This document shows positions 4,198-32,192 of a DNA stretch of 64,000 nt, piece after piece. Each line of letters begins with the position of its first letter. Position 1 is the stretch's first letter. Position numbers and translations under genes: made by a program. A model generated the notes under the pieces. The model worked only from the letters and a program-made list of their open reading frames with translations, had not been told where the DNA came from and did no database searches. Origin of the DNA: Acinetobacter celticus (GTDB taxonomy: Bacteria; Pseudomonadota; Gammaproteobacteria; Pseudomonadales; Moraxellaceae); assembly GCF_001707755.1 (NCBI RefSeq), contig NZ_MBDL01000008.1, positions 248,001 through 312,000 on the forward strand, written 5' to 3'.

Positions 4198-4725
4198 TTA
4201 TTGATGTGCTTTATCATGACAAAGTTCATGCTTATGACGATGACTATTTGAGTGATGCTTATCCTGATCTAAGCTTTGATCTAAATCCTGCCGAATACAA
4301 CAGCCTTCCACATATTGGCTTGTCCCATCACAGTAAAATTCTTCTTTCCACACAGGCACTTCATGTTTGACCCGTTCCACCGCTTCTTCACACGCCTGAA
4401 ATGCTTCACGGCGATGCGCTGCATAGGCAATGGCAATAATCGCCGTTTCACCAATATCCAAAGCGCCAATTCTGTGAATCACCCGTACATAAGACACGCC
4501 GTATTTTTGTTGAATATCCTGTTCAATCTGACGAATCATTTTTTCCGCTACAGGTGCATAAGCGGTATATTTCAAGGCTTGAACGGCTTTACCTTCATGA
4601 TGATTGCGCACCGTGCCAATAAATACGCCAATGCCCCCACATTCAGGAAAATGTTGAATGCCATCAAAAATATCCTGTGTAAATGCATGGGTCTGAATCC
4701 GTGCAAAATGTTTTAGTGCTTGCAT
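4198..4725 (-). CDS. moaE: Molybdopterin synthase catalytic subunit MoaE, with a histidine-rich tail
   Basis: With MoaD it inserts the dithiolene sulfurs to make molybdopterin. The first about 150 residues are a standard MoaE: GVFIGTVRNHHEGKAVQALKYTAY, HRIGALDIGETAIIAIAYAAHRREAF and KHEVPVWKEEFYCDG (with the catalytic lysines). The last about 25 residues are unusual: roughly a third are histidine, ending HRHKHELCHDKAHQ, which suggests metal binding or may be neutral. I start at ATG 4725, not the TTG at 4731, because AGGAGGT lies 6 bases upstream. That Shine-Dalgarno is formed by the last Gly-Gly codons of moaD. Confidence 0.93.
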   Translation of the reverse strand: MQALKHFARIQTHAFTQDIFDGIQHFPECGGIGVFIGTVRNHHEGKAVQALKYTAYAPVAEKMIRQIEQDIQQKYGVSYVRVIHRIGALDIGETAIIAIAYAAHRREAFQACEEAVERVKHEVPVWKEEFYCDGTSQYVEGCCIRQDLDQSLDQDKHHSNSHRHKHELCHDKAHQ

Positions 4726-4727
4726 AA

Positions 4728-4979
4728 TCAACCTCCTGCGACAGGTGACAGCATGACAAGGGTACTGTCATGATTGAGTAGCATTTGCCGTGACACAATA
4801 TCTTCACCAATAGCGCAGGCACAGCGTTCAAGCATTTTTTGCGCATGTGGATATAACAGTTCCACTTGTGCTAAAACATCTGCAATGCAGCTTGAAGCAT
4901 CACACTGTAGGATTAAATCACTCGGTAATTGCCGTTCAATTGCACCAAAGGCTTCAATTTTAACTAGAATATTTGACAT
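4728..4979 (-). CDS. moaD: Molybdopterin synthase sulfur carrier MoaD
   Basis: Small ubiquitin-fold protein, 83 aa, ending in the obligatory Gly-Gly (SPVAGG) that is adenylylated by MoeB and carries the thiocarboxylate used by MoaE. The start ATG at 4979 lies 2 bases after the moaA stop and is served by GGAGGT, formed by the last two glycine codons of moaA. It is flanked by moaA and moaE as in many moa operons. No moeB is seen in the window, so the activating enzyme must be encoded elsewhere. Confidence 0.93.
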   Translation of the reverse strand: MSNILVKIEAFGAIERQLPSDLILQCDASSCIADVLAQVELLYPHAQKMLERCACAIGEDIVSRQMLLNHDSTLVMLSPVAGG

Positions 4980-4981
4980 CT

Positions 4982-6103
4982 TTAACCTCCAAGCATATGC
5001 ATACTGATTTTTCGGGATGCCTGCTGCGCTGTTCGGGCTTGAATAGCATCATAGCCTTGTTCTTTTTTCCAAATATAAGCACCAACTTTTTGCAATAATG
5101 CTAACTTCTCAGAGGTGTTTTCAGGCATTTTTTCAACGGTTGATAATGCAAATTGTCGTGAAGCTGACAATAGCGCTTTAATTTCTGTTTTCAGCGCTAA
5201 GCCTTTTGGCGCAAACAAACAGTTATACAATTCGCCCTGTGCCGTTAAACGAATCCGATCACAATCACTGCAAAATGAATGACTGATAGTGGAAATAATA
5301 CCAATCGAATGTTTTTTGATGAGATGACTGTCGCCTAAATAGCTGTTGATTAAATATTGCCGTGCAGGATTGGCCCGATATTGAGCCGATGGTTGTTCCT
5401 GAATTTGTACATCAAATTCAGTCGCCAATGTCGCTAGAATCTGTTGCTCACTCACCACATCCGCAACCGACCATTTTTGATCACCATCAAGTGGCATAAA
5501 CTCAATAAAACGTAGCACAATATCCTGCTGAATCGACCATTTTGCCAAAGGTAAAATCTGATTGTCATTCATACCTTTCATTAAAACCGTATTAATTTTA
5601 ATCGGCAATCCAACTTCTTGTGCCGCAGAAATCCCTGCCAATACAGGTGCCAACTCTTTTTGGGTCAGCTGTTTAAATTGTTTAGCATCCAAACTATCCA
5701 AACTGATATTCAGATCATCCAAACCTGCATTCTTCAGTGCTTCAGCATATTTTTTTAAATAATGCGCATTGGTGGTCATCGAAATACGTTTTAGACCAAT
5801 TTTTTTGAATTGTTGTAATTGTTCAATAAAATGCACCACTCCTTGGCGCATTAAAGGTTCACCACCTGTAATGCGAATATGTTCGATACCTTGTTGCACC
5901 ATAAAATGGCAAAATTGATAAAGTTCCTCAAAGCTGAGTAAATCCTGTTTTTTTACCCACTCAGGATGTTCAGGCATACAATAGACACACTTAAAATTAC
6001 AGCGATCAGTCACTGAAATTCTGAGTTTGCGCTTTTGACGACCAAATTGATCAGCAAATACGGCTTGTGTTTCCAATGGCATCATCGCATTCATTCTGAG
6101 CAC
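4982..6103 (-). CDS. moaA: GTP 3',8-cyclase MoaA (radical SAM)
   Basis: First step of molybdenum cofactor synthesis: converts GTP to 3',8-cH2GTP, which MoaC then turns into cPMP. 373 aa. The N-terminal radical-SAM cluster motif CNFKCVYC is at about residues 33-40. The C-terminal second [4Fe-4S] site is visible as CSDCDRIRLTAQGELYNCLF, and the protein ends in the functional Gly-Gly (HMLGG). The start is GTG 6103 or ATG 6094; AGAGGT lies just upstream and neither spacing is ideal. It heads the moa unit 137 bp after mobA. A sigma-54 type promoter at 6195-6210 precedes it, suggesting nitrogen control. Confidence 0.95.
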   Translation of the reverse strand: MLRMNAMMPLETQAVFADQFGRQKRKLRISVTDRCNFKCVYCMPEHPEWVKKQDLLSFEELYQFCHFMVQQGIEHIRITGGEPLMRQGVVHFIEQLQQFKKIGLKRISMTTNAHYLKKYAEALKNAGLDDLNISLDSLDAKQFKQLTQKELAPVLAGISAAQEVGLPIKINTVLMKGMNDNQILPLAKWSIQQDIVLRFIEFMPLDGDQKWSVADVVSEQQILATLATEFDVQIQEQPSAQYRANPARQYLINSYLGDSHLIKKHSIGIISTISHSFCSDCDRIRLTAQGELYNCLFAPKGLALKTEIKALLSASRQFALSTVEKMPENTSEKLALLQKVGAYIWKKEQGYDAIQARTAQQASRKISMHMLGG

Positions 6104-11515: not shown

Positions 11516-14062
11516 TTAAGCTTCAACCATCGCAATACGGCTCACATCACGTTCTGCTGTGGTTTTTGGACGGATTTGCCCACGTTCAGAGGCAAACTGA
11601 ATATGTGGATCATTTTGTTGTTCAGCTTTTGCATTAATAAAGGTGATAAAGCGTTTACGTACTTCAGGGTCTTCAATTGCAGTACGCCATTCATCCTGAT
11701 AAGTGCCAACCACGTGCGACATACGGCGTTCCAATTCATCCGCTATGTCTAAAGAATCATCAATCACGACGGCTTTTAGATAATCCAAGCCCCCTTCCAT
11801 GTTGTCACGCCATACTGAAGTTCGTTGTAAACGGTCTGCGGTTTGCACATAGAACATAAAGAAACGGTCGATATAGCGAATTAAAGTTTCCGTATCCAAG
11901 TCGGAAGCCAATAATTCTGCATGACGAGGTTTCATCCCACCATTACCACAGACGTATAAATTCCAACCTCGTTCTGTAGCAATCACACCGACATCTTTAC
12001 TTTGTGCTTCAGCACACTCACGGGTACAGCCTGAAACCGCCATTTTAAGTTTATGTGGTGAACGTAAACCCTTATAACGATTCTCTAAAAAGATCGCTAA
12101 GGCCATAGAATCATCAACGCCATAACGACACCATGTACGACCCACGCAAGATTTAACGGTACGTAGTGATTTACCGTAGGCATGACCTGATTCAAAGCCT
12201 GCATTGATGAGTTTTTCCCAAATATCAGGCAATTGATGCACTTGCACCCCAAATAAATCAATGCGTTGCCCACCTGTTATTTTGGTATACAAGCCATAAT
12301 CTTTCGCTACTTGCCCAATGGCAATTAAACCTTCAGGGGTAATTTCCCCTCCTGCGATTCGTGGCACAACCGAATAAGAGCCATCTTTTTGAATGTTGCC
12401 CAAGTAATAATCATTACTGTCCTGTAGACCTGCATGAGTGGGTTTTAAAACAAAATCGTTCCAACAAGATGCTAAAATATTCGCTACCGTTGGTTTACAA
12501 ATATCACAACCTAAACCATGCCCATGTTGATGGATTAAATCACCAAAGGTTTTAATTTCATTGACTCGCACCAAGTGATAGAGCTCTTGACGTGAATAGG
12601 CAAAATGCTCACATAGATGATTATTAACCGTTACCCCTTGACGCTGTAATTCAGATTTTAAAACCTGTGTCACCAAGGCTGAACAACCGCCACACGCCGT
12701 TGCGGCTTTGGTGCATTTTTTTAGTGCACCCAATGAGGTTGAACCCTCTGCAATTGCCGAACAAATATCTGCTTTAGACACATTATTACATGAACAAATC
12801 GTTGCGCTGTCGGGCAGTAAATCAACACCACTTCCGCCACTTTTAGAAGGTGCATTGGTATACCCTGGCATAATCAAACTTTCAGGGCTTTCTGGAACAG
12901 CCAAGCCATTCAGCATCATTTGTAAAAGGTCGTTATATTCTTTGGCACAACCAACCAAAACTGCACCCAAAAGTTTAGTTTTTTCAGCATTCACCACGAT
13001 TTTTTTATAAATCATGGCATCTTCATCTGCATAAAAATAACTGAGTGCATTCGGTGTTATGGCGTGTGCATCACCGACTGATGCCACATCAACACCCATT
13101 AGTTTCAGCTTGGTGCTCATGTCTGCACCTAAAAATGCAGTGCTTGTTTGTGACATCACGTGCTTGGCTGCAATACGTGCCATGTCATAGCCAGGTGCAA
13201 CCAAACCATAAATTTTATTTTGCCATAATGCACATTCACCAATGGCGTAAATGTCTTCATCTGAGGTTTGGCAATAATCATTAATACTGATTCCGCCACG
13301 CTCCCCCATGTTCAAACCACTTTGACGCGCCAATTCATCACGTGGGCGAATGCCTGCGGAGAAGAGAATGATGTCTGTTTCAAGCTCTGAACCATCACCA
13401 AACTTCATCACATGTGTGGTTGATGTACCCTCTTCAATGGATGATGTCGCTTTTTGGGTATGGACTTTCACGCCTAAATTTTCGATTTTTGAACGTAAAA
13501 CTTTGCCGCCCAAATCATCAATTTGTACCGCCATTAAACGGGGTGCAAATTCCACCACATGGGTGTCTAAATCTAAATCTCTTAATGCTTTGGCTGCTTC
13601 TAATCCAAGCAGACCACCACCAATGACCACACCTGTTTTAGCATTTAAACTTGCAGCACGAATGGCATCAAGGTCATCAATTGTCCGATATACAAAGCAA
13701 TTTTTACGTTCATTGCCCGGAATCGGTGGAACAAAAGCATAAGAACCTGTTGCTAAGATCAATTTATCATAGGCAATCACATCACCATGATTGGTTGTAA
13801 TGCTTTTATTGATACGATCAATGGCAACCGCTTTGGTGCTTAAACGCAAATCTATTCCATAAGCATCTGCAAAATCACTACGGCATAAGGTTAAATCTTT
13901 GACAGATTTTCCTGAGAAATATTCAGTTAAATGCACACGGTCATAGGCTAAACGAGATTCTTCAGCAAGGATGGTGATTTCCACTTCATCGCCTGCATGC
14001 TCAAGCACCGATTCGATAAATTTGTGACCCACCATACCGTGACCAATCATGACTAATTTCAT
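11516..14062 (-). CDS. nirB: Assimilatory nitrite reductase large subunit NirB
   Basis: Reduces nitrite to ammonium with NADH. Domains in order: FAD/NADH oxidoreductase (GHGMVGHKFIE near the start, GVVIGGGLLGLEAAKAL around 150), BFD-type [2Fe-2S] (CSCNNV...CGGC, about 430-470), a second Cys-rich region (LGCDICKP), and the ferredoxin-type siroheme-[4Fe-4S] half with CVGRTWC and GCTREC providing the four cluster cysteines. Length 848 aa is standard. I start at MKLVMIG (14062), not the TTG at 14077, because GAGGAGAATTGAA lies directly ahead of this ATG. It lies 35 bp after narK, in the same operon. Confidence 0.95.
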   Translation of the reverse strand: MKLVMIGHGMVGHKFIESVLEHAGDEVEITILAEESRLAYDRVHLTEYFSGKSVKDLTLCRSDFADAYGIDLRLSTKAVAIDRINKSITTNHGDVIAYDKLILATGSYAFVPPIPGNERKNCFVYRTIDDLDAIRAASLNAKTGVVIGGGLLGLEAAKALRDLDLDTHVVEFAPRLMAVQIDDLGGKVLRSKIENLGVKVHTQKATSSIEEGTSTTHVMKFGDGSELETDIILFSAGIRPRDELARQSGLNMGERGGISINDYCQTSDEDIYAIGECALWQNKIYGLVAPGYDMARIAAKHVMSQTSTAFLGADMSTKLKLMGVDVASVGDAHAITPNALSYFYADEDAMIYKKIVVNAEKTKLLGAVLVGCAKEYNDLLQMMLNGLAVPESPESLIMPGYTNAPSKSGGSGVDLLPDSATICSCNNVSKADICSAIAEGSTSLGALKKCTKAATACGGCSALVTQVLKSELQRQGVTVNNHLCEHFAYSRQELYHLVRVNEIKTFGDLIHQHGHGLGCDICKPTVANILASCWNDFVLKPTHAGLQDSNDYYLGNIQKDGSYSVVPRIAGGEITPEGLIAIGQVAKDYGLYTKITGGQRIDLFGVQVHQLPDIWEKLINAGFESGHAYGKSLRTVKSCVGRTWCRYGVDDSMALAIFLENRYKGLRSPHKLKMAVSGCTRECAEAQSKDVGVIATERGWNLYVCGNGGMKPRHAELLASDLDTETLIRYIDRFFMFYVQTADRLQRTSVWRDNMEGGLDYLKAVVIDDSLDIADELERRMSHVVGTYQDEWRTAIEDPEVRKRFITFINAKAEQQNDPHIQFASERGQIRPKTTAERDVSRIAMVEA

Positions 14063-14097
14063 TTCAATTCTCCTCAAATTTTCTTATTTTTTTGCGA

Positions 14098-18196: not shown

Positions 18197-19477
18197 ATGC
18201 CAAAGAAGTCTAAAGAACTATCTGCACTCAGTGTAGCAAAAATTAAAGAGACCGGTCGATATTCCGTAGGTGGCGTGGATGGCTTATGTCTAAATGTCGA
18301 AGGTAATTCTCGCGTCTGGATTTTGCGCGCTATTGTAGGCAAGCGTCTAGATAAAGAAGGTAAACTAAAACCTCATCGCCGTGATATTGGTATCGGCCCC
18401 TACCCTGAGGTTTCTTTATCTGAAGCTCGTACTAAAGCAACAGAACTACGATTACAAATTCGAAATGGCATTGATCCAATTGCTCATAAACGAGAAAAGC
18501 TTGAAAAGTTACATATCCAAAAGCTACGTGACAAAACATTCAGTGAATGTGCAAAAGTGGTTATTGCCAATAAAACGCGTGAGCTTAAAAATCAAAAGCA
18601 TATCGGGCAATGGACGACTACACTAGAAACTTATATTTATCCAACCTTGGGGAATCTTAGCATTAGCGCAATTACCAAAGTCGATATTGCTGAAGTTTTA
18701 AAACCTATCTGGGTTGAAAAAAATGAAACCGCTAAACGTATTCGTGGTCGTATAGAAACCATTTTTGATTATGCCAAGGCTATGGGATATTTTGTAGGTG
18801 ATAACCCTGCTGAATGGAAAGGTAACTTAGAGCCTATTTTAGGTAATCTAAAACAGGTTTCACGCCCTCACCCTTCTTTGCCTTATGAACAGGTTACAGA
18901 GTTTATTCAGCATTTAAGGCAGAAAAAAGGTATTTCACCCAAAGCACTAGAATTTGCAATTTTAACGGCTTGTCGGTCGGGTGAAATCTTTGGAGCCACT
19001 TGGCAAGAAATTGACTTTAAAAATAAGGTTTGGATTATTCCCAAAGAACGGATGAAAGCAGAAAAGGAACATCGTGTTCCCTTATCACAACAAGCCATTA
19101 GTTTACTTCAATCCATTCAAGACCATATTCAACCACAAGAGTTCATATTCCCTGCCCCTCGCAGTGGTGCAATGCTTTCTGATATGTCTTTAACTACATT
19201 GATCAAACGTATGCATGAACAGAAGTTAAAAGAAAATGGCTTAGGCTATATTGATCCAAAACAAAATCGTGTGATTACTACACATGGTTTTCGCTCGACT
19301 TTCCGTGACTGGTCAGCCGATAAAACAGATTACCCTCGTGAAGTTTGTGAACACGTACTTGCCCATAAATTACCAGATGAAGTTGAAGCAGCTTATTTAC
19401 GCGGTGCTTATCTTGAAAAACGTAAGGGACTGATGGCAGATTGGTCTGGATTTTGTGATAAAAAAGTAGTCCAATGA
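18197..19477 (+). CDS. P4-type tyrosine integrase
   Basis: Site-specific recombinase that integrates and excises the island, 426 aa. The N-terminal DUF4102-like domain (LSVAKIKETGRYSVGGVDGLCLNV) is at residues 10-95, then a core-binding SAM-like domain (about 115-210), then the catalytic domain. Active-site residues seen: R260 (AILTACRSGEIFG), H363 and R366 (THGFRSTF), H387 or H390, and the nucleophile probably Y400 (EAAYLRGAYLEKRK). It looks intact. It sits about 150 bp inside attL, transcribed into the island. Upstream GGGGTA repeats may be its own binding sites. Confidence 0.92.
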   Translation: MPKKSKELSALSVAKIKETGRYSVGGVDGLCLNVEGNSRVWILRAIVGKRLDKEGKLKPHRRDIGIGPYPEVSLSEARTKATELRLQIRNGIDPIAHKREKLEKLHIQKLRDKTFSECAKVVIANKTRELKNQKHIGQWTTTLETYIYPTLGNLSISAITKVDIAEVLKPIWVEKNETAKRIRGRIETIFDYAKAMGYFVGDNPAEWKGNLEPILGNLKQVSRPHPSLPYEQVTEFIQHLRQKKGISPKALEFAILTACRSGEIFGATWQEIDFKNKVWIIPKERMKAEKEHRVPLSQQAISLLQSIQDHIQPQEFIFPAPRSGAMLSDMSLTTLIKRMHEQKLKENGLGYIDPKQNRVITTHGFRSTFRDWSADKTDYPREVCEHVLAHKLPDEVEAAYLRGAYLEKRKGLMADWSGFCDKKVVQ

Positions 19478-20907: not shown

Positions 20908-22080
20908 CTAAAAATTATATATCAACATAATATTCAAAAGTTTGTTCCATTTACCATCATCACCTGCTGCTAAAGAGGTCGTTGTTCCACCGACAAATGG
21001 ATCATTCTTACTCATTAAATACTCTGTATATAAAGAGACATTTTTATAGCCCCATGCGACACCCACAATATTTCGTTGTGAGTCATCAAAACCCTGCTCT
21101 TTTTTATTAAACCCACTCAGCACCATATATGGGGTGATATTGAAAGAATCTCGGACATTATTAAAGACATAACTTGTATCTAGAGTATAAAAGTAGCCTT
21201 TATTGGCAATATCATATTCAGTATCAAAAGAACCAAAGGCTGAACTATTCGGGCTCAAAGCATCTTTATTACTAATCGACTGTTTCCCACCTGTAAGAAC
21301 TATATTCAAATTCTTATAGTTAATTCGGTTAAATAGTACCCAAGCATTTCTTGTACCATCCGCCGAAGCCTTCTTATTTTCAATATCTGAATGCCAATAA
21401 CTTCCACCTAACGAGACTTTCAAATCATCTGTAGTTAAAAACTTAAGCTCTTGATCAACACGAGCCATCCACATATTTTTTTCATTTAAATCTGTTTTAA
21501 GTGGATCAGAGGATGTCACCATATTACCTGTATAACGTGCAGCATCTTTACTTTCACCGTGATAATTTCCACCGTCTGTAGCAAAATAAGCTAAGTCTAC
21601 TTTGGTTGCTGAAGGCATTTCAAAGTGATAATTCACGCCTAAATTCAAAGCATCCTGTAATCCCATGGTATTGTTGATGCCTGCATAGAAACTACTATCC
21701 CAATAGCGCCCTGGCCCAAATGGAATCGGTTGTAAACCTACACTGATATTATCTGTAGAATTTAAGCGATATCCCATAGAACCTGAAACCAAAGTTGAAA
21801 AGTCACAAAAGGTATCATACTGATAACAACGATATTCGGCTTGACCAAACCAATCAGGAGATTCATAACCTAAACGTAAAATTGCCGCATCAAATTTCAC
21901 TTTCTCATCGGATGCTAGTTCACCATAATGCTTATCTTGATAGTTTGCTCGGACTGCCCCTGATACTGTCAATGCGCCTAATTCGCTTTGTGGATCACCA
22001 AAGGTTACACCAGCAAAACTAGGCAATGTCATGACAATACTCACTAGGCCGAATCCAACTTTTAAATACGTTTTGTTCAT
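20908..22080 (-). CDS. Outer-membrane porin of the amine-degradation locus
   Basis: 390 aa. A signal peptide ends near SFAGVTFG (residues 1 to about 23). The rest shows alternating polar/aromatic strands of a beta-barrel (AILRLGYESPDWFGQAEYR, SVGLQPIPFGPGRYWD) and ends with the terminal aromatic IYNF needed for outer-membrane assembly. It resembles the alginate-O/porin-like group, but I cannot place it precisely. It is the last gene of the minus-strand cluster, 206 bp after the cupin, and probably admits the cluster's substrate. Confidence 0.7.
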   Translation of the reverse strand: MNKTYLKVGFGLVSIVMTLPSFAGVTFGDPQSELGALTVSGAVRANYQDKHYGELASDEKVKFDAAILRLGYESPDWFGQAEYRCYQYDTFCDFSTLVSGSMGYRLNSTDNISVGLQPIPFGPGRYWDSSFYAGINNTMGLQDALNLGVNYHFEMPSATKVDLAYFATDGGNYHGESKDAARYTGNMVTSSDPLKTDLNEKNMWMARVDQELKFLTTDDLKVSLGGSYWHSDIENKKASADGTRNAWVLFNRINYKNLNIVLTGGKQSISNKDALSPNSSAFGSFDTEYDIANKGYFYTLDTSYVFNNVRDSFNITPYMVLSGFNKKEQGFDDSQRNIVGVAWGYKNVSLYTEYLMSKNDPFVGGTTTSLAAGDDGKWNKLLNIMLIYNF

Positions 22081-22286
22081 TTACATATCCTTGTTTAAAT
22101 GAAGATGAATAAAAGCTATTCCTGCTTTCTCATACTTTTTCAGGAAACACTTCTCCCTTCAGGAGAAATTCCCAAATTTGATTTTTTGAAATTGATTGTT
22201 ATAGGCCTTGGCTTGACCTATAACGTAAAAAGATTATATAAATGTAAATTGATACTCTTTAATTGGCTCTAATAATTGCCTAGCAT

Positions 22287-22640
22287 TTAGGCTAAGCCGT
22301 GTAATTCTTTCCAATTTCCAGGATGTACCACATAACCAAATAAGGCATGTCCACCATAGATCAGTTCTGTTCCTTCTGGTATCCACAACATTTGCCCTGG
22401 GCGTACCTCATATTTATGACCATTGGCTGTGAGTTCAAAACATCCCTCAATCACAAAGACCACTTCGTCATAAAGAACTTTCCAAGTGACTTCTGCCCCT
22501 TCCCAGCGTGCAAACCCAATTCCCATATTGGGTGAAACATCTTCGCCTAATGCTCTTGCTACATAAGCAGTACCATCTGGAGTTTCGCCACGTAAATTAA
22601 AATTAAGCTTGGCACTATCTACTAACTTCACTTCTTTCAT
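22287..22640 (-). CDS. Small cupin protein (EutQ / DUF861 type)
   Basis: About 117 aa single-domain cupin: TWKVLYDEVVFVIEGCFEL and GQMLWIPEGTELIYGG form the two cupin motifs, similar to EutQ-like and ureidoglycine-type cupins. The longer upstream reading (to 22691) overlaps the preceding gene; ATG 22640 has AGGATAAAGAC directly ahead and starts 13 bp after the oxidase stop. The partner FAD oxidase and aldehyde dehydrogenase suggest a role in amine catabolism. Catalytic or sensory function is unknown. Confidence 0.7.
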   Translation of the reverse strand: MKEVKLVDSAKLNFNLRGETPDGTAYVARALGEDVSPNMGIGFARWEGAEVTWKVLYDEVVFVIEGCFELTANGHKYEVRPGQMLWIPEGTELIYGGHALFGYVVHPGNWKELHGLA

Positions 22641-22653
22641 GTCTTTATCCTGT

Positions 22654-23970
22654 TTATAATTCACTACGACTTCGCCACTTTTCAAATGCAATACGGGTTT
22701 TTACCCCAATGCCTAAAAATGGTTCTGGTGGGTTTAAACTCGGCATACCAGTGACATACTGAATATCTTTTAAGGCTGCGGAGTCTGTACCTACAATTAA
22801 ATCTGCCAGTAATGTTCCTGAAATTGTTCCCCATGCAGCACCAACCCCATTGTCACAAGCGCTGGCATAAACACCATCTTCCAACTGACCAAAGAAATTG
22901 GTGAAATTACGAGAAATAGCATAAACGCCACCCCACGTGTGGGTGAATGGAACATCTGCTAAATCAGGATAACGAGCTAAATATGCTTTGCGATGGTCTT
23001 GTTGAATCCATCGTCGAGTTTCATCACTCACATTTGCACCATATTTCGGCACATGTTTATAGGTATTACGAATTAAGATACGGCGATCTGCCGTCATGCG
23101 TAAGGTCGTGCCTGCATGATCTGCTGGGGTAAGTCCCCAATCTAACTCACCATGATAACGTGACATTTCAGCATCAGTTAAAGGTCGAGTCCAACTTGCA
23201 AAAGTCATTACGGGTAATAGACGGTTTTTTAAATAACCGAATTCTTTGGTAAAAATACTGGTCGCCAATAACACGGTTGGTGTCGTTATAATGCCGTGAT
23301 CACCTTGAAGTATCCATTGACCATTCTTCTTTTTCAAACTTCGAACAGGAGATTGTTCCAATAATTCTACGTTTTCAGGTAAATGATCTCCCATACCTCG
23401 GACTAAAGCGGCTGGTTGCATTAAATAAGAACTGGGCGTAAAAATCGCTCGACTATAATAATCTGTCCCCAAAACTTTTTTCAGCTCTGCTTTTTCCACC
23501 CAGCGAAACGGCTCTCCAAGATCTTTCATCAAGTGTTCAAAGTGATTAAGATGTGCTTCTCCTCGCTCACCAATCGCCCCTTGATATTTACCAGCCGCAG
23601 ACCATTGGCATTCGATCTTATATTTTTCGACCAAACCCTGTAATTGGGCAATTGCTGCTCGGTTCAAACTTAATAATTTTTGCTTATGCGCTGGATCTGG
23701 ATGACTTAATGCAAATTTATGTGGCAAATCAATCACAAATCCCGAATTACGACCAGATGCACCTTCTGCAACACGTTGAGCATCAATTAAAATAATTCGT
23801 GCATTTGGCTTTAACTCAGCAAGCCTACGTGCTGCTGCCAATCCCGCAAAACCCGCACCAATAATTGCATAGTCAGCTTTTTGTGTCCCAAGCAACTTCT
23901 GAGAAGGTGGTGCTGGCGGTAAGGCTGAGTACCAACCACAAGTACTATCATCATTTGGTAAAGCAATCAT
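22654..23970 (-). CDS. FAD-dependent amine oxidoreductase (DAO / PuuB-like)
   Basis: 438 aa flavoprotein of the glycine/D-amino-acid oxidase fold. The dinucleotide loop is ADYAIIGAGFAGLAAARRLAEL at about 33-54, followed by RVAEGASGRNSGFV, the motif typical of PuuB-like gamma-glutamylputrescine oxidases. GVYASACDNGVGAAWGT near the C-terminus contacts FAD. It oxidises a C-N bond of an amine, giving an aldehyde or imine. It fits between the Rieske oxygenase product and the aldehyde dehydrogenase, or acts on a demethylated amine. Substrate unknown. AAGGAAG precedes the ATG. Confidence 0.8.
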   Translation of the reverse strand: MIALPNDDSTCGWYSALPPAPPSQKLLGTQKADYAIIGAGFAGLAAARRLAELKPNARIILIDAQRVAEGASGRNSGFVIDLPHKFALSHPDPAHKQKLLSLNRAAIAQLQGLVEKYKIECQWSAAGKYQGAIGERGEAHLNHFEHLMKDLGEPFRWVEKAELKKVLGTDYYSRAIFTPSSYLMQPAALVRGMGDHLPENVELLEQSPVRSLKKKNGQWILQGDHGIITTPTVLLATSIFTKEFGYLKNRLLPVMTFASWTRPLTDAEMSRYHGELDWGLTPADHAGTTLRMTADRRILIRNTYKHVPKYGANVSDETRRWIQQDHRKAYLARYPDLADVPFTHTWGGVYAISRNFTNFFGQLEDGVYASACDNGVGAAWGTISGTLLADLIVGTDSAALKDIQYVTGMPSLNPPEPFLGIGVKTRIAFEKWRSRSEL

Positions 23971-23981
23971 CTTGTTCTTCC

Positions 23982-25337
23982 TTAAACTATCGATGGTTGA
24001 TGGGTATTCAGTTTCTCAAGCCACTGACTACGATGTTGTTGTAATTGACGTCCCAATAAGGCAAAACCAGTTAATTTTCCTGTGTCATCATAAAAACCGG
24101 CACTCCATTCTCCCTCATGTTGTTCAACATGCCATTTTCCATCCCCCATTGCAGGAAGGAGTGAAAGCGGTAAAATTGGTGTTTTCACAATGACAGGGCT
24201 GTTTTGTAATTGAGTCATTTGAATTTTGCCTAATAAATTGTCCGCTAAGGCTGGAATTGCCTGATTAATCGGACTAATGTAAGGCAGCCATTGACCTTCT
24301 ACTTCAGCACAATCACCTAAAGCAAAAATAGAGTTATCACTGGTGCAATGATCAAGACCTGTACAAATACCATGTGCTGTATTTAAACCCGCCATTTGTG
24401 CCAATGTAATATTTGGGCGTAATCCAACAGCACTCAAAATCAAGTCTGTCTCTAATAACTGCCCATCTTGTAACTGAACTTGATAACGGTTATTAACACT
24501 CTGGATTGACTGAATACTATTTTGTAATTTCCATTCAACTCCAATTTGATTCAGTGCATTTTGTAATGCATGACCTAATTCTTCTGGAATCAAACGTCCC
24601 ATTGCTGATCGACCTAAGCCGACCACGGTCACTTGAATACCATGCGCAGCAAGATCATTGGCAAATTCACATCCGATTAATCCATCACCTAAAATAGTAA
24701 CGTGTTGTTTAGCCTCTAACTTTTCTCGGAAAAGACGATAATCAGCTAAATCATTCACACTATAGACATGAGAAGTATCGCCCTGAATTGGAATAACAAT
24801 CGGACTTGCACCAGTGGCTAAAACCAAGCGGCCATATGGATATTCACCAATAGAGGTGTGAATTTTTTTATTCACACGATCAATTTTCTTAACAAATGTA
24901 TGCGCATAAACTCGAATATTTAAGCGTTGTTCCCAACTTAAGGCGGTCTCTCTAACTAAACTCGGACCATCCTTACCTAAGGCTAAGGCATTCGATAACG
25001 ATGGTTTGCTATAAATTGCACCATCATCCGCAGTAAATAAGGTAATAGACACATCTTTAGATTGCTGGCGCAGTGCTGAAGCCAATTGATAGCCTGCATG
25101 ACCACTTCCAATTATCACAATAGGTTCAATCACATTCAAACTAGCAATTGCAGGTTCTTCAAGAACATCATCTGTGATATCAAGCATTTCAAAATCAGCT
25201 TTACCTACCTGACATTCTGGGCACATCCAATCCTCTGGAATGTCTTCCCATTTTGTACCTGGTGCAATTCCATCATCAGGCCAGCCTTTCGCTTCATCGT
25301 AAATCCAGCCACAGACAACACATAACCACTTTCTCAT
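23982..25337 (-). CDS. Rubredoxin-rubredoxin reductase fusion
   Basis: 451 aa. Residues 1-50 are a complete rubredoxin with C6-x2-C9 and C39-x2-C42 as iron ligands (CVVCG ... CPEC). After a 20-residue linker comes a FAD/NAD(P)H reductase: FAD loop [16 protein letters not shown] (about 75-90), NAD loop [17 protein letters not shown], and [16 protein letters not shown]. Rubredoxin pairs usually feed AlkB-type alkane hydroxylases. Here the gene lies with a Rieske oxygenase and no ferredoxin or ferredoxin reductase is present in the cluster, so it is the likely electron supply. It lies 27 bp after the aldehyde dehydrogenase. Confidence 0.88.
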
Positions 25338-25364
25338 CGTGTCTATTTCCCTTTTTTCTACTAT

Positions 25365-26795
25365 TTACACGTTATGTTGCAAACGAATTCCAATATTGCG
25401 TGTTTGAACATAACTAAAGATGGCTTCCTGCCCTTTTTCACGACCAAACCCAGATAATCCAACACCGCCAAATGGGGTTTCAATACCACCTGCAAACCAT
25501 TCATTAATAAATACTTGTCCAGCAATCAAGCGATTGGCTACACGTAATGTTTGATTCAAACTTTCACCAAATACACCTGCGACTAATCCAAAGTCTGTAC
25601 CATTGGCAATAGCCACCGCTTCATCTTCAGTTTCAAATGGCATTATCACGAGTACAGGGCCAAAAACTTCTTGTTGTGCAATCGACATTTCAGGAGATGC
25701 TTCAATAATTGTCGGTAACACAAAATAGCCAGATAAATCTGCTGCATGTCCACCCGTCAGAATATTGGCGCCTTCTTGTCGTGCTTTTGCAATCATTGCC
25801 AAGATTTGCTGTTGCTGATCGTGAGATATAACGGGGGTAAGTTCAGCATTATTTTCACCGATCCCCACAGTTAGGCTTTCAGCCAAACCCACCACTGCAT
25901 TTTTGACTTCGTCATAGCGACTACGATGTACAAGTAAACGTGACATTGCGGAACACACTTGCCCAGAGTTATAGAAAATTCCGACTTTGACGCTACGCAA
26001 TAATTGTTCAAGGTCGACATCAGCAAAAGCAATTGCTGCTGATTTCCCACCTAACTCCATTACTGATGGGGTCGCACGTTCAGCAGCATCTTTTAAAATA
26101 CGCTGCCCAGTTGCTACAGAACCCGTGAATACAATTTGGTTGGTATATTTGTGTTTAACCAAACAACTCCCCACTTCTGAACCTTTACCACAAAGCAAAT
26201 TGATCGCACCTTGTGGAAATCCAGCTTTTTCAAGCGCTTTAAATAATAAAATCATACCCAGTGGGGAAATTTCAGGTGATTTCACCACGACTGCATTACC
26301 TGCGGCCAAAGCTGGTGCTAAAGAGCGCGCACAAATGGACACAGGGAAATTCCAAGGTACAATTTGCACGGATACGCCCATTGGAATATAAGAAGTAAAA
26401 TCAATGTAATCTTTGCCTAAAGGCACAGAAATTCCTTCAATTTTATCTGCCATTCCTGCGTAATATTCGAAGTAACGTGCGGCTTCATCAAACTCTTCAC
26501 GTGCTGTTGCCAAATTTTTACCATTTTCACGGCACAGAATTAATGCACCCTCAGCAGCAATTTCACGAATTGCATCCGCTGCTTTTAGTAGCCATGTTGT
26601 ACGCTGTGCAGGGCGAACATCGGTTAATACACCACTTTTTGCACAACGATGAGCTGCGGTCATAGCAGCATCAGCATCTTCAATACTGGCTTGAGCCATC
26701 GTAGCAAATGCTTGTGCTGTTGCGGGATTGATGACATCCAACTGGCTAGAAGAATCTCGCCATTGACCATCAATAAAGTTGAGGTAATGTTGCAT
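25365..26795 (-). CDS. Aldehyde dehydrogenase (betaine-aldehyde-dehydrogenase-like)
   Basis: 476 aa NAD(P)-dependent aldehyde dehydrogenase. Seen: the substrate/cofactor region VPWNFPVS, NAD loop FTGSVATGQRIL, catalytic Glu in VMELGGKSAAIAFADVDL, and catalytic Cys in FYNSGQVCSAMSRLLVHRS. The reading that begins at 26891 is too long; ATG 26795 (MQHYLNFIDGQW) has GGAGGC ahead and lies just after the Rieske gene stop. It should oxidise the aldehyde released by the oxygenase or the oxidase. BetB-like by general appearance; substrate not provable. Confidence 0.88.
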   Translation of the reverse strand: MQHYLNFIDGQWRDSSSQLDVINPATAQAFATMAQASIEDADAAMTAAHRCAKSGVLTDVRPAQRTTWLLKAADAIREIAAEGALILCRENGKNLATAREEFDEAARYFEYYAGMADKIEGISVPLGKDYIDFTSYIPMGVSVQIVPWNFPVSICARSLAPALAAGNAVVVKSPEISPLGMILLFKALEKAGFPQGAINLLCGKGSEVGSCLVKHKYTNQIVFTGSVATGQRILKDAAERATPSVMELGGKSAAIAFADVDLEQLLRSVKVGIFYNSGQVCSAMSRLLVHRSRYDEVKNAVVGLAESLTVGIGENNAELTPVISHDQQQQILAMIAKARQEGANILTGGHAADLSGYFVLPTIIEASPEMSIAQQEVFGPVLVIMPFETEDEAVAIANGTDFGLVAGVFGESLNQTLRVANRLIAGQVFINEWFAGGIETPFGGVGLSGFGREKGQEAIFSYVQTRNIGIRLQHNV

Positions 26796-26796
26796 A

Positions 26797-27987
26797 TTAT
26801 GCCTCCAACGCTGCTTTGGCTTGAGTTGCCAACCATTGTTGGAAGAAATGAGTCGGTAAATCCATTTCAGGTGAGAAAACACCACCACCAAAACCAGGAG
26901 AATGTCGACCTTTTTGCATATTTTCTACTGCAAAAATATCTTCAGAAAAAACAACTTTCCATGATTCTAAAGTTGCTTCACGGCAAGCATCGTATTCAGG
27001 CTTTAATGACTCATCCCCAACATAATACAAACGTAGTTTTTCAAGTGTTTTCTCAGGAGCAATCGGATCAATCATCATGGCAAATGCATGATCAGCCTGA
27101 ATACCTAACAATACATTTGGGAAAACCGCCACATATTCAGCATGACGCAATTGTTCTTCTGGCCAATGTGGAAATTTTGGTAAATGTGTACCTGCAGTTG
27201 CAGATAAATTATATTTATAACTGCCTTGACCTGCAAAACGACCTTCAAACATGATGTTGTAATGATCTTCAAGTTTTGAATAAGTATTTAATGCAGGATG
27301 TACCCATGGTAAATGATAGGCTTCACAATAGTTTTCAACTGTTAGCTTCCAATTACTCTTTACAGGTAACTCAAAAGTTGAACCTATTTTACTGGTGCGA
27401 ATTAAATCTAATCCATCTTCACCTAAGAAAGGTTTCCAACGTTCAACTAGTGGTGCAATATGCTCTTCAAAGCTTGGTGCATCACCAGAGATATTAATAA
27501 ACACCATATCCATCCAAATCGCTGAACGAAGTGCTTTTAAGCCATGTTTTTCACACTTAAAACGATCATCCTTATGTTGGTTAATACCACCAACGTGCGG
27601 AGTTCCCTTTAAGTTACCATTGAGGTCATAACTCCAAGAATGATATGGACAACGAATCACACCTTCAATGGTGCCTTCTTCATGAACCAGTTGCATACCA
27701 CGATGGCTACATACATTATGAAAAACTTGAACCTGACCTTCACGGTTACGCATCATGACTAATGGCATACCCATAAAGTTGCTTGGTTTGACATAGCTTT
27801 TTTTCGGCAAATCAGAAGCAAAACCAACACATACCCAAGTTTTACTCAAAATATTGTCACGTTCAAAATTAAAATACTCATCACTGGTATAGGCGATATT
27901 TGGCATACCATTGGATTCAGTAATCGGATTTAAAACATTGTCGACTTGTTGAACTGTAATCAGTTTTTGGTTGACTTGGCTATTCAT
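26797..27987 (-). CDS. Rieske non-heme iron oxygenase (choline-monooxygenase / betaine-demethylase type)
   Basis: 396 aa alpha subunit. Rieske [2Fe-2S] ligands C93-x-H95 and C113-x2-H116 (CSHRG ... CPYHSW). Mononuclear iron histidines H225 and H230 in NYCEAYHLPWVHP. This group includes choline monooxygenase and glycine-betaine or stachydrine demethylases; the BCCT transporter across the divergent promoter supports a quaternary-amine substrate. It differs clearly from carnitine oxygenase CntA as I remember that sequence. First gene of the operon; GGAGATTATTAG precedes ATG. The donor is probably the rubredoxin fusion two genes downstream. Confidence 0.85.
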   Translation of the reverse strand: MNSQVNQKLITVQQVDNVLNPITESNGMPNIAYTSDEYFNFERDNILSKTWVCVGFASDLPKKSYVKPSNFMGMPLVMMRNREGQVQVFHNVCSHRGMQLVHEEGTIEGVIRCPYHSWSYDLNGNLKGTPHVGGINQHKDDRFKCEKHGLKALRSAIWMDMVFINISGDAPSFEEHIAPLVERWKPFLGEDGLDLIRTSKIGSTFELPVKSNWKLTVENYCEAYHLPWVHPALNTYSKLEDHYNIMFEGRFAGQGSYKYNLSATAGTHLPKFPHWPEEQLRHAEYVAVFPNVLLGIQADHAFAMMIDPIAPEKTLEKLRLYYVGDESLKPEYDACREATLESWKVVFSEDIFAVENMQKGRHSPGFGGGVFSPEMDLPTHFFQQWLATQAKAALEA

Positions 27988-28319
27988 CTAATAATCTCCA
28001 TTTATTTTGAATCACGCAGTACTCCCTGCGTTGCTATTCACATTGCTGCACTATCTGCTGCCTTATGGAGATTGTGGAAAACATCTTGATGATAAACAAA
28101 CGACTTTTTTGCTCGGTACACATGAGTTTTAATCATGCATTTTTTTGTATAACACTTTTATTAAATTTGGTGTCTTGCAAAAATATACGTATTACAAAAA
28201 CTCACTCAGAGATGAGAATAAATAGGTTGAGCATCCCGCTAAGATATCTTTACTCTTTTACGATCTACACAAACAGTTAATAGATAGTTAGCTGCTTGCC
28301 ACGCATCCAAGGAGGAATT
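27988..28319. promoter_or_regulatory. Divergent regulatory gap between the oxygenase operon and the BCCT gene
   Basis: 332 bp between two divergent genes. It contains the inverted repeat CATGA-N7-TCATG (28121-28137), found again upstream of the LysR gene. A 71-codon reading frame in this gap has no recognisable content and is probably chance. Confidence 0.5.
28121..28137. promoter_or_regulatory. Operator-like inverted repeat, copy 1
   Basis: CATGAGTTTTAATCATG, 5-bp arms around 7 bases, in the divergent promoter of the oxygenase operon and BCCT gene. The identical 17-mer at 31279-31295 lies upstream of the LysR gene. The likely ligand is the LysR-type regulator at 30161; this is inference. 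Confidence 0.5.
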
Positions 28320-30029
28320 ATGCGTACAACAGGGATCTCTGAATCCAACACAGTCGTATCTGTGGTTTCAAAAGTTTTAGTCATTATATTTATTTTATTT
28401 TGTGCAATTTATGCAGATAAAGCAGTTGAAATTTTTTCTTATTTATCCGGTATCTTACTGCACAATATGAAATGGTTTATCTTATTGGCTGCTACAGGTA
28501 TCTGCTTCTTTCTTATCTATCTCATGTTCAGCCGTTATGGGTTAATCAAATTAGGTAAAGACACAGACAAACCCGAGTACAGTTACTTTGCATGGATGTC
28601 AATGTTATTCTCATGTGCAATGGGTGTCGGTCTGGTTTTCTGGGGTGTTGCTGAGCCCATGAATCATTATGCAAGCAATCCTTTTACCAAAGGTTTAACG
28701 GATGAAGCTGCCAGTATGGCGATGCAAATCACCTTTTTCCATTGGGGTTTACATGCTTGGTCTGTTTACTGTGTTACAGCTTTAGCCATTGGTTATTTCT
28801 CATATCGTAAAGGGCTCCCTTTTTCTTTGCGCTCTATTTTGCATCCTTTTATTGGAAATCGTATTTATGGCCCTATTGGAAATTTAGTTGATATTATTGT
28901 CATTGTAGTCACCACCTTTGGTATTTCTCAAACCCTTGCGCTGGGTGTGTTACAAATTAATGCAGGCCTCAATAAAGTATTTGGTTTAGGCATCAATGTC
29001 ACCTCCCAATTTATTATTTTATTACTGTTGTCTAGTCTCGCAACAATCTCTGTAGTACGAGGTATTGGTACAGGAATGCGCCGTATCTCTGAATTAAACA
29101 TTATTTTATCAATTATTCTTATTGTTATTTTAATGTGTGTTGGCCCTGCACGTTATATCACCCATTCGTATATGGAAGGCCTGAGTAACTATTCTTCAAA
29201 CTTTATCAGCATGAGCTTATGGAGTGATGCACAAAAAGATTCTGAATGGCAAAATTGGTGGACAGCCTTTTATTGGTTATGGTGGTCAACATGGGCACCT
29301 TTTGTAGGAATGTTTATTGCTAAAATCTCCAAAGGCCGAACGATTCGTCAACTTATCGCGGGTGTTTTAATTATTCCAACGTTGGTAACATTCCTTTGGA
29401 TGAGCGTCTTTGGTGGTTCTGCGCTTAAAGTTGAGCAAAATGCTCGCCACGCATTTGAGAAACAACAGACTGCACAAATAGAAAAAGCTCCGTCAACTGC
29501 TACTCCAAATCTACAAAGCAAAGCCATAGACACAACACAAGCCTCATCTGAATTTACAGGTGGCCCAATTGTTAAAGCAACCCAAAAGGACAACACTCTG
29601 GCAATCTTTGCCTTGTATGATGCGATTGATGATGGCTTATTTGGAATGATCCTGAGTATTACCACATGCTTATTACTGATTACTTATTTAGTCACCTCAC
29701 AAGATGGCGGTACACACGTATTATGTTTCCTTGATACTCGTTCAGAAAAAGAGACGCCTATTCGTACACGACTTATCTGGTGTTTCTTTGTAACCTCCAT
29801 TAGTTTAGGGCTACTCTATGTAGGTGGATTAAAGGCGATTCAAACAGCGGTTATTTTGTTTGGTTTTCCAATCCTAATTCTGTTAACTATTATGTGTGTG
29901 GCTCTTCTTAAAGTCTTACATAAAGAAACTTCAATTGGTGTTTTAACCTTAGCCGTAGAAGAAGTAAAAGAAGATTTAGATCCTATAAATTTAGTTAAAA
30001 CACCACTAGAAACAAAGTCTAAAACCTAG
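28320..30029 (+). CDS. BCCT-family betaine/choline/carnitine transporter
   Basis: 569 aa inner-membrane carrier with about 12 helices. Family signatures: WMSMLFSCAMGVGLVFWGVAEPMNHY (helix 3 glycine-rich stretch), HWGLHAWSVYC, and WWTAFYWLWWSTWAPFVGMFIAKIS with the conserved tryptophan box. A hydrophilic insert of about 60 residues (KVEQNARHAFEKQQTAQ... to ATQKDN) follows the FGGSALK segment and is longer than I expect in BetT- or CaiT-type carriers. I start at ATG 28320 because AAGGAGG lies 5 bases upstream. It imports the quaternary amine degraded by the divergent operon. Confidence 0.9.
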   Translation: MRTTGISESNTVVSVVSKVLVIIFILFCAIYADKAVEIFSYLSGILLHNMKWFILLAATGICFFLIYLMFSRYGLIKLGKDTDKPEYSYFAWMSMLFSCAMGVGLVFWGVAEPMNHYASNPFTKGLTDEAASMAMQITFFHWGLHAWSVYCVTALAIGYFSYRKGLPFSLRSILHPFIGNRIYGPIGNLVDIIVIVVTTFGISQTLALGVLQINAGLNKVFGLGINVTSQFIILLLLSSLATISVVRGIGTGMRRISELNIILSIILIVILMCVGPARYITHSYMEGLSNYSSNFISMSLWSDAQKDSEWQNWWTAFYWLWWSTWAPFVGMFIAKISKGRTIRQLIAGVLIIPTLVTFLWMSVFGGSALKVEQNARHAFEKQQTAQIEKAPSTATPNLQSKAIDTTQASSEFTGGPIVKATQKDNTLAIFALYDAIDDGLFGMILSITTCLLLITYLVTSQDGGTHVLCFLDTRSEKETPIRTRLIWCFFVTSISLGLLYVGGLKAIQTAVILFGFPILILLTIMCVALLKVLHKETSIGVLTLAVEEVKEDLDPINLVKTPLETKSKT

Positions 30030-30160: not shown

Positions 30161-31084
30161 TTAAGTTAAACCTTTCTCTCCCACTTTCCCAGGTAACTGC
30201 TCCAATAGCCAACAACGAAACTGTTTAACACTCGGAGGAATTATTCCTCTATCAATAGGTTCGAGCATACTAAAATTTGCCTCAGTTCTTAATACCGTTT
30301 CTATTGGACGAACTAAAGCACCACTCTTTAAATAATCATCAACTAAAGAACCCCATGCCAATGCAACACCTTGACCATTAATTGCAGCTTGCAATAACAT
30401 CGGATAGTTATTGATATTTACTCTATTTTTGGGCTTAATTACTGGATAGTTTACCGCTTCAAACCATTCTGCCCAAGTAATCCAATCCTTCTGTGAATCG
30501 TCTAAATAAAGTAAACTTTTAGCGAATATATTTTCAGAATCACTATCTTTCTCAAACTGTGAAAGATAGCTTGGACTACAAACAGGAAAAACCTCTTCAG
30601 GAAATAAAGTCGTTACTTTCATGCCTGTAGGCGGTACCCGACAATAGAATAGAGCTAAATCAAAATCCATTTTATATAAATCTTTAATATTTTCTGTGGT
30701 TAATATCCTTAAATCAATTCCTTCACTTTGTTGAAAAGCTGAAATTTTAGGTAGCAACCAAAGTGCGGCCATGGCATTCGTTGTTGCAACTGTAACTTGA
30801 TGTTCTCCCTGCCATTTCTTTATATCAGCCGTTGCTTGAGCAACATCTAATAAAGCACTATAAATTGTTTTATAGTATTGTAAGCCTGTCGGGGTCAAAA
30901 AAATATTTCGATTGGCTCGAACAAATAATTCCTTCCCTAAATATATTTCTAGCTGTCGTATTTGCCGACTAATTGCCCCTTGCGTAACGCTTAATTCATT
31001 TGCTGCTTGAGTAAAACTAAGATGACGCGCTGCCGCCTCAAATACAATCAAGCTATTCATAGGCGGCAATGGTTTAATTTTCAT
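30161..31084 (-). CDS. LysR-type regulator, GcvA-like
   Basis: About 307 aa. The N-terminal winged helix-turn-helix (LIVFEAAARHLSFTQAANELSVTQGAISRQIRQLE) occupies residues about 10-60, followed by a LysR substrate domain (TVATTNAMAALWLLPKISAF...), resembling GcvA-type regulators. ATG 31084 has TAGGAGTGTCC ahead; the GTG 6 bases earlier is less likely. It is convergent with the BCCT gene and probably controls the oxygenase operon and transporter. The 17-bp inverted repeat found in both promoter regions is a candidate binding site. Confidence 0.88.
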   Translation of the reverse strand: MKIKPLPPMNSLIVFEAAARHLSFTQAANELSVTQGAISRQIRQLEIYLGKELFVRANRNIFLTPTGLQYYKTIYSALLDVAQATADIKKWQGEHQVTVATTNAMAALWLLPKISAFQQSEGIDLRILTTENIKDLYKMDFDLALFYCRVPPTGMKVTTLFPEEVFPVCSPSYLSQFEKDSDSENIFAKSLLYLDDSQKDWITWAEWFEAVNYPVIKPKNRVNINNYPMLLQAAINGQGVALAWGSLVDDYLKSGALVRPIETVLRTEANFSMLEPIDRGIIPPSVKQFRCWLLEQLPGKVGEKGLT

Positions 31085-31278
31085 GGACACTCCTAATTTG
31101 TCCTACATTTCCATTTTTAAGATTTGACGCGTAATTAAATTATCATCCATTTCAAATTTTAGTCCTTACTTAAATTTACAGTCCTTCTACTTCTAAATTC
31201 GTAGTTTTACTGGAAACCCTTTTCGCAATAAAGTGTCATATCGTGACATTAATAAAAAGTGAGAAAAAGTACTTAACC

Positions 31279-31336: not shown

Positions 31337-32192
31337 TCATTTTGAAGCTGCCTCAAATGCTTCTGGACTCATCCCATCAAGATGCGAATGGCGCCTGATT
31401 CGATTGTAAAACATCTCGATATAATCAAACACATCTGCACGTGCCATTTCTCGTGTTTTATAGATCCTCTTTTTAATTTTTTCCTTCTTTAAGCTACTAA
31501 AAAAGGATTCAGCAACGGCATTATCCCAACAGTTTCCGCGACGACTCATACTGGGAACTAAGTTATGCTTCTGACAGAATCTTTGCCAATCTCCGCTGCT
31601 GTATTGTGAACCTTGGTCTGAGTGTATGATCACAGGCTCATTTGGCCTACGTCGCCACACTACCATGAGAAGTGCATCCAAAACGATATCCTTGGCAAGC
31701 GTAGGTTTCATTGACCAACCGATGACTTTCCTTGAATATAAATCAAGAATCACAGCCAGATATAACCAGCCTTGCCAGGTGCGAATGTAAGTTATATCAG
31801 TCACCCAAGAAGTATCAGGCGTGTTTACAACAAACTCTCGATTTAAGTAATTTGGTGGAACGATTTGAGAACGACCACAGCCATAACTCTTATGCTTTTT
31901 ATATCCTAGAACAGCGGCAATGCCATTGTTCTTCATGATCTTTAGCACACGATTAGGCCCACAGCTTTCCCCTAACTCTTAGATCCAGCATGATGCGACG
32001 ATACCCATAGATACCATAACTAGCTTCATAAGAAGAGCGAATAAGTTGTAATAACCGTTTGTCTTCAATGGTTCTGCCTGATTCAGGTTCATGTAACCAG
32101 GCGTAATAGCCAGCACGAGCAATCTTAAGAACCCAGCACATCATTTTAATCTTAAACTGATGGCTGTATTCAAGGATAAACTGATACTTTAC
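31337..32192 (-). pseudogene. IS3-family transposase OrfB, frameshifted
   Basis: DDE integrase-type transposase. The N-terminal part (KYQFILEYSHQFKIKMMCWVLKIARAGYYAW) and the C-terminal catalytic part (DTSWVTDITYIRTWQGWLYLAVILD, IIHSDQGSQYSS, WDNAVAESFFSSLKKE) are in different frames. The break is near 31955-31975, where AGAGTTAGGGG should encode a REL-type turn; two bases (GA) appear lost. Otherwise all DDE landmarks remain. It is therefore inactive unless rescued in trans. Confidence 0.85.

Follow-up and report, generated by a model that had tools for sequence, protein, structure and literature searches.

A Rieske operon with a rubredoxin-reductase fusion

The 64,000-nt stretch of the Acinetobacter celticus genome analyzed here (the window) carries a compact minus-strand operon of five genes, running from 27987 to 22287, which encodes a Rieske oxygenase, an aldehyde dehydrogenase (ALDH), a rubredoxin fused to its reductase, a DAO-family enzyme, and a EutQ-like cupin (Table 1). 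With the likely start codons (ATG 26795 rather than TTG 26891 for ALDH; ATG 22640 for the cupin) the intergenic gaps are 1, 27, 11, and 13 nt, which supports a single transcript for all five. A BCCT-family transporter gene (likely start ATG 28320) is divergent from the operon, with a LysR-family regulator gene next after it, and a putative porin gene (390 aa) begins 206 nt behind the cupin gene. An earlier reading of this locus (the original prediction) had named Rieske, ALDH, fusion, amine oxidase, cupin, and BCCT genes here, and all of these have Pfam family matches.

The fusion combines, in one frame, a Cys4 rubredoxin (residues 1–55, with PF00301 at 3–49), an FAD-dependent reductase of the Pyr_redox_2 family (about 70–451), and a rubredoxin-binding C-terminal domain, PF18113 (Rbx_binding). 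Its rubredoxin part is 69% identical to a stand-alone rubredoxin of the same genome.

A search with the Rieske protein only, restricted to one genome per species, gave 97 stretches, of which the best 80 loci (63–99% identical over the best segment) were used, together with three plasmid loci. The nearest named match among those 80 is from A. silvestris (99% identity). In 81 of the 83 loci the rubredoxin and reductase are fused in one frame; a Marinobacter locus (L054) has instead a stand-alone rubredoxin between the ALDH and DAO genes, with all four cysteines present, and Psychrobacter lutiphocae (L052) has an operon copy without any rubredoxin. The Cys4 motif is intact in 82/82 rubredoxin-bearing loci. 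The other operon partners are similarly constant: ALDH in 83, DAO in 83, LysR in 80, cupin in 79, and BCCT in 76. In these counts some loci are clipped by contig ends, and other family members could account for matches to ALDH or BCCT.

In a tree of the Rieske proteins the window sequence falls in a clade of 85 rows with support 97 (SH-aLRT, a quick method; long branches were flagged among the outgroups, and one locus counted in the clade, L100, is not in the tree). Two loci added to the 83 bring the window clade to 85 loci; within 4 kb of the Rieske gene, 83 of them have a rubredoxin and one, L063, has a PDR/VanB reductase in addition to its rubredoxin. Among 33 more distant loci there are none with rubredoxin, five with a PDR/VanB reductase (two of them apparently the same record), and 28 with neither. 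A survey of 96 related genomes, covering all but the weakest Ring_hydroxyl_A matches and measuring distances between pairs on shared contigs, found six such matches with a rubredoxin within 5 kb, all of them from copies of this operon; among the matches listed, the next nearest pair was 24 kb apart. The pairing of this Rieske oxygenase with the fusion is thus beyond chance. In line with the original prediction, no PDR/VanB-type reductase was found in the window: all 16 genome matches of the GbcB model lie outside it (C8:248001-312000). Its further proposal, that the oxygenase draws its electrons from the fusion encoded with it, is supported by this distribution as a prediction from gene linkage.

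Table 1. Coordinates of the operon and its immediate neighbors in the window
Feature	Position	Strand	Basis
Rieske non-heme iron oxygenase, 396 aa	26797..27987	-	PF00355 + PF00848; ligand residues
Aldehyde dehydrogenase, BADH-like superfamily member	25365..26795	-	PF00171, 495 bits
Rubredoxin fused to FAD-dependent rubredoxin reductase, 451 aa	23982..25337	-	PF00301 + Pyr_redox_2 + PF18113
DAO-family FAD amine oxidase, 438 aa	22654..23970	-	PF01266
EutQ-like cupin	22287..22640	-	PF06249
Putative outer-membrane porin	20908..22080	-	no family match
BCCT-family transporter	28320..30029	+	PF02028
LysR-family regulator, GcvA-like	30161..31090	-	in 80/83 operon loci

Active site and class of the oxygenase

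The predicted ligands of the Rieske [2Fe-2S] centre are C93, H95, C113, and H116, and those of the iron are H225, H230, and probably D350 (picked by analogy); all seven are invariant in 30/30 aligned sequences, chosen out of 81. By sequence the best solved relatives are CntA chains (6y9c, E 6.7e-34). The protein scores 121 bits with CntA and 127.6 bits against the GbcA model NF058607, far under the curated 670-bit cut-off of the latter, and on this ground it is not classed as a GbcA glycine betaine monooxygenase; nor is it classed with the CntA/CntB carnitine monooxygenases, since no linked CntB-type PDR/VanB reductase was found in the window. The structure model (mean predicted local distance difference test score, pLDDT, 80.0; predicted template modeling score, pTM, 0.84) is weak around residues 129–149 and 223–239, segments that include two of the iron ligands. 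In a fold search CntA and stachydrine demethylase (3vca, which we take to be that enzyme) fill eight of ranks 1–9, with Z 30.6–31.6 over 337–363 residues and root-mean-square deviations of 3.9–4.4.

In group Va Rieske enzymes, which include carnitine and choline oxygenases, the ammonium group of the substrate is bound by an aromatic residue, Tyr or Phe, that precedes the bridging Glu by two positions (PMC7948474). The corresponding residues here are Y220 and E222, equivalent to CntA Y203/E205. Position 220 is Tyr or Phe in 95/95 aligned rows and position 222 is Glu in 94/95, some of the rows being from the same species. Conservation of this signature makes it likely that the enzyme acts on a quaternary ammonium substrate, as predicted from its residues.

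The same genome encodes other Rieske systems. One cluster on contig C9 (L125), with a Rieske protein scoring 811 bits against CntA beside ALDH, PDR/VanB reductase, BCCT, and LysR genes, is by these matches the genome's own carnitine monooxygenase cluster, which makes carnitine an unlikely substrate for the operon. A BenA-BenC cluster (L126) has its own linked reductase, and a 425-aa Rieske protein (L124) has a linked PDR/VanB reductase; for an AntA gene (L127), no reductase was found among the proteins tested. In the window itself, a 544-aa frame at 9832–11466 matches a Rieske domain weakly at its N-terminus, reads like an FAD reductase after that, and adjoins an 853-aa NirB-like frame (11516–14077); the two are probably a nitrite reductase unit.

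Relatives of the operon and candidate substrates

Genes linked to relatives of the operon give a possible indication of its product. In a gammaproteobacterial genome (G069; locus L186) the Rieske and ALDH genes are followed, co-directionally and with small gaps, by SoxB, SoxD, SoxA, and SoxG, and then by a DAO protein gene (the SoxD and SoxG labels follow gene order and length, and no family match was obtained for the 190-aa SoxG frame). The SoxB is 79–80% and the SoxA about 62% identical to Acinetobacter plasmid proteins adjoining gmaS and mgsABC (A. ursingii L194; LoGeW2-3 L188 and L191), and from this identity they are most likely subunits of N-methylglutamate dehydrogenase (Mgd). No MgsC, a subunit of N-methylglutamate synthase, was found in G069 (the best match, 35%, is to a 1503-aa frame), so that its N-methylglutamate must have another source, plausibly this operon. 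In Ruegeria AD91A (L101), some 2 kb separate the Rieske gene from SoxB and SoxA genes of alphaproteobacterial type, whose products are 78% and 65% identical, respectively, to proteins encoded in an mgs-gmaS-sox-folD-purU cluster of Paracoccus alcaliphilus. In Phaeobacter loci the place of the Sox genes is taken by a FAD-GcvT protein resembling dimethylglycine dehydrogenase, and L178 has a pyrroline-2-carboxylate (imine) reductase-like gene behind ALDH (345 bits; cut-off 322). All of these neighbors fit formation of an N-methyl amino acid after the Rieske and ALDH steps. Mgd-like genes near the Rieske gene of genome G372 (L157) were not counted as support, since MgsC is also present there, and an AraC/GlxA regulator near the Ruegeria cluster, 29% identical to one beside Paracoccus mgd, was not used.

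Homarine (N-methylpicolinate) is a quaternary N-methylpyridinium carboxylate and a common marine compound; the gene name used for its catabolism is homABCDER. Because Mgd is reported to take part in its catabolism (PMC13390433), and probable Mgd genes are linked to relatives of the operon, homarine is the leading candidate substrate, ranked ahead of ring opening of proline betaine. The operon occurs in marine genera (Vibrio, Pseudoalteromonas, Photobacterium, Oceanisphaera) as well as in Pseudomonas and Acinetobacter. The reading favored here, with nearly even prospects of being correct, is that the operon serves the catabolism of an N-methylated cyclic betaine, likeliest homarine, by a route to N-methylglutamate in which the fusion feeds the Rieske oxygenase.

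The route can be outlined from the gene content, operon structure, conservation, active-site residues, and probable Mgd linkage seen in these sequences. The BCCT transporter would import the betaine. Electrons would pass from NAD(P)H to FAD, to the fusion's own rubredoxin, and on to the Rieske [2Fe-2S] centre, while the cationic ring would be held by a cation-pi contact with Y220. The oxygenase would oxidize beside the ring nitrogen, the ring opening to an aldehyde that the ALDH would convert to a carboxylate. Further steps, an imine reduction among them and with possible help from the cupin, would yield N-methylglutamate. In genomes without MgdABCD, the window genome included, the DAO-family flavoprotein, by analogy a candidate N-methylglutamate demethylase, may then demethylate this to glutamate. 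The bolder proposal, that a group V Rieske enzyme with a dedicated fusion donor oxidatively opens the N-methylpyridinium ring of homarine (or the ring of another cyclic betaine), and so starts an N-methylglutamate route widespread in Gamma- and Betaproteobacteria, including non-marine ones, is tentative and more doubtful than the reading as a whole. We know of no group V Rieske enzyme for which oxidative opening of an N-methylpyridinium ring has been described.

Several points weigh against these interpretations. To turn homarine into N-methylglutamate, one carbon has to be lost and an imine reduced, and no gene of the operon clearly encodes an enzyme for either step. No Mgd (best TIGR01372 match 26.5 bits, against a cut-off of 1164) and no MgsC were found in the window genome, so that the link to N-methylglutamate comes from relatives, about 46–58% identical, and not from this genome, in which the DAO enzyme would have to replace Mgd. 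The Ruegeria locus has no ALDH directly behind the Rieske gene, and 19 of the 20 stretches L157–L176, with more distant homologs, have no ALDH match; these homologs may do something else. Sox clusters of Mesorhizobium and Rhizobium, 53–61% identical to those of G069, occur with M24 peptidase and amidase genes and with no mgs genes in the stretch; such Sox proteins may act on another N-methyl amino acid, which somewhat weakens the Mgd assignment. In the fold search, terephthalate dioxygenase comes next at Z 30.5, so close below the quaternary-ammonium enzymes that fold alone cannot settle the group. As to the electron supply, four loci (L186, L178, L185, and L052) have neither rubredoxin nor PDR/VanB reductase within 4 kb, so that an unlinked donor can serve, and electron transfer to the Rieske centre of an oxygenase is made less favorable by the potentials of rubredoxins, which are usually the higher of the two.

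As a second possibility, the substrate might be of the proline-betaine (stachydrine) type: a CntA-like oxidation at C5 would open the pyrrolidinium ring, the resulting N,N-dimethylglutamate semialdehyde would be oxidized by ALDH to N,N-dimethylglutamate, and glutamate would then be formed by one or two demethylases of flavoprotein type. No carbon is lost on this route, so a Rieske enzyme, an ALDH, and a demethylase would suffice. Two demethylase-like systems (the Sox genes and a 449-aa DAO protein) are indeed present in L186, stachydrine demethylase ties with CntA as fold neighbor of the Rieske protein, and the imine reductase-like gene of L178 would also suit it. Leisingera L102 has, about 3 kb behind the Rieske gene, a gene of mandelate racemase/muconate lactonizing type, a superfamily that includes proline betaine racemase (PMC5144071). 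One argument against this route is that Stc2, the known enzyme, demethylates and is a member of group Vb, in which Asn occupies the position of the operon family's Tyr or Phe. Another is that the sole printed link between Mgd and a betaine found in the accessible texts is homarine, links to stachydrine not having been searched for. A stachydrine-type substrate is considered unlikely, yet it is a serious rival to homarine.

A third possibility is an acyclic betaine (choline, glycine betaine, carnitine, or butyrobetaine), C-N cleavage or hydroxylation of which would give an aldehyde for the ALDH. The ALDH does score best with betaine aldehyde dehydrogenase (BADH) models (396 bits, cut-off 669) and also matches BADH structures, a BCCT transporter is present, and group Va includes carnitine and choline oxygenases (PMC7948474). 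Against this stand the separate carnitine monooxygenase cluster and the GbcA score (127.6 against 670 bits), and a DAO, Mgd, or FAD-GcvT demethylase would be unexpected once trimethylamine is released. An acyclic substrate thus seems slightly less likely still. Of the quaternary amine that the original prediction proposed, the general type stands, supported by the group V residues; the acyclic compounds it named are poorly supported, on the grounds just given and because the probable-Mgd linkage points to a cyclic N-methyl betaine.

It is improbable, and the weakest of these alternatives, that the fusion feeds another partner (an alkane hydroxylase, the operon's DAO enzyme, or a defence against peroxide or O2) while an unlinked ferredoxin reductase supplies the Rieske oxygenase: AlkB is the classical partner of rubredoxin and its reductase, DAO enzymes can produce H2O2, a few loci lack the fusion, and the genome has several other reductases, but it also has a separate rubredoxin beside a reductase-like gene on contig C11, its four FA_desaturase-family (AlkB-type) matches are all on other contigs than the fusion's, a PDR/VanB reductase appears instead near the same Rieske type in 5 of the 33 more distant loci, and the L054 operon retains the rubredoxin alone.

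Accompanying genes and relation to known systems

For the DAO protein the structure model has low confidence (mean pLDDT 66.6); in a fold search it matched glycine and sarcosine oxidases at Z about 20–22, which indicates a DAO fold and nothing finer, and BLAST matches of the protein to the two other flavoproteins cover short stretches only. None of the cupin positions conserved in more than 93% of 77 aligned rows is a histidine, which suggests that the cupin has no canonical metal site. The porin of the original prediction was borne out in part: the gene is there and its product is plausibly an outer-membrane porin, but this identity has no family match behind it (none in Pfam or NCBIfam at E 0.001, and none to one DcaP protein). 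It is 58–97% identical in 15 loci, all Acinetobacter, and 23–26% in three others. In the BCCT protein an insertion splits the family match in two; its identity falls to about 48–51% in many Acinetobacter loci, so that the transporter has seemingly been swapped.

The Rieske gene is present (E <= 1e-60) in 6 of 60 same-genus genomes and in 8 of 96 genomes searched in total, its own genome counted; the operon is an accessory trait. On one side of the region is a tyrosine recombinase that carries an arm DNA-binding domain (18197–19477), and on the other a transposase frame of rve type (31337–31948); with the patchy distribution, this suggests a mobile island.

Other genes recur near the operon and its relatives. 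A DddP-like M24-family gene is nearby in 15 of 121 loci scanned, the query's own locus counted (L020, L021, L022, L024, L030-L032, L043-L045, L054, L063, L072, L073, and L098); that of L098 scores 440 bits against a DddP cut-off of 600. The rubredoxin-less operon copy of L052 lies beside genes for a luciferase-like monooxygenase, a flavin reductase, an alpha/beta hydrolase, and AA_synth (1406–5293), a set that was given no weight as evidence. Of the 20 stretches L157–L176, 14 encode a conserved protein of ~79 aa next to the Rieske gene, as do 2 of the 11 stretches L177–L187 (its loci are L097, at 13628–13867, L102, L103, L158, L159, L161-L166, L168, L170-L174, L183, and L184); it had no family match in the one copy scanned, and most stretches with it lack ALDH.

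Among known systems, CntA/CntB provides the best solved-sequence match, is among the top fold matches (Z 31.6), and shares with the operon the Tyr/bridging-Glu signature and ALDH and BCCT neighbors, but identity is about 22%, a rubredoxin-rubredoxin reductase replaces the PDR/VanB flavin-ferredoxin reductase, and the DAO and cupin genes are extra. Stc2 (fold Z about 31) and GbcA are relatives within group V, though of group Vb, with its Asn at the position of the operon's aromatic residue. The N-methylglutamate pathway (gmaS, mgsABC, mgdABCD) resembles the system through the probable Mgd subunits in or beside L186 and L101; unlike it, G069 has probable Mgd without MgsC, and the window genome has neither. 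RubA/RubB and AlkG/AlkT of alkane hydroxylation have the same domains, but here a single chain holds them, and its gene belongs to a Rieske operon.

What is unusual in the system is its rubredoxin supply, for which there is a precedent in Rhodococcus, where Rieske dioxygenases need or are linked to a rubredoxin (Rub1 of strain P200; o-xylene oxidation in strain TKN14; PMC5209329). Those are aromatic hydrocarbon dioxygenases, and the accessible part of that paper mentions no fusion to a reductase. In the openly licensed literature, as far as its text was accessible, no report was found of rubredoxin supply to a quaternary-ammonium Rieske oxygenase, none joining Rieske, rubredoxin reductase, and betaine in Acinetobacter, and none joining Rieske, rubredoxin, BCCT, and aldehyde dehydrogenase; for homarine together with a Rieske operon, the one paper found dealt with glycine betaine in Vibrio.

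A homarine catabolic pathway has reportedly been published (by Ferrer-Gonzalez et al. 2026, in Nat Microbiol 11:1531). The pathway considered here may thus already be in print, and the original prediction's "undescribed" route is not upheld; the operon might be identical with the published pathway. The two are alike in that Mgd is involved there (PMC13390433) and operon relatives carry probable Mgd. Studies of Ruegeria pomeroyi report that homarine is rapidly drawn down (PMC12817926), that it had no confirmed transporter (PMC9723723), or merely annotate it (PMC9038784), with no homarine genes named in their accessible text.

If the favored reading is true, Rieske oxygenases of one lineage would be able to exchange a flavin-[2Fe-2S] reductase for a rubredoxin system, or the reverse, a natural experiment on the donors that Rieske centres accept. 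The operon would also provide markers by which to trace, in Vibrio, Pseudoalteromonas, Psychrobacter, Pseudomonas, and Acinetobacter, the degradation of a compound abundant in algae and invertebrates, and a function for many genes now annotated just as "aromatic ring-hydroxylating dioxygenase."

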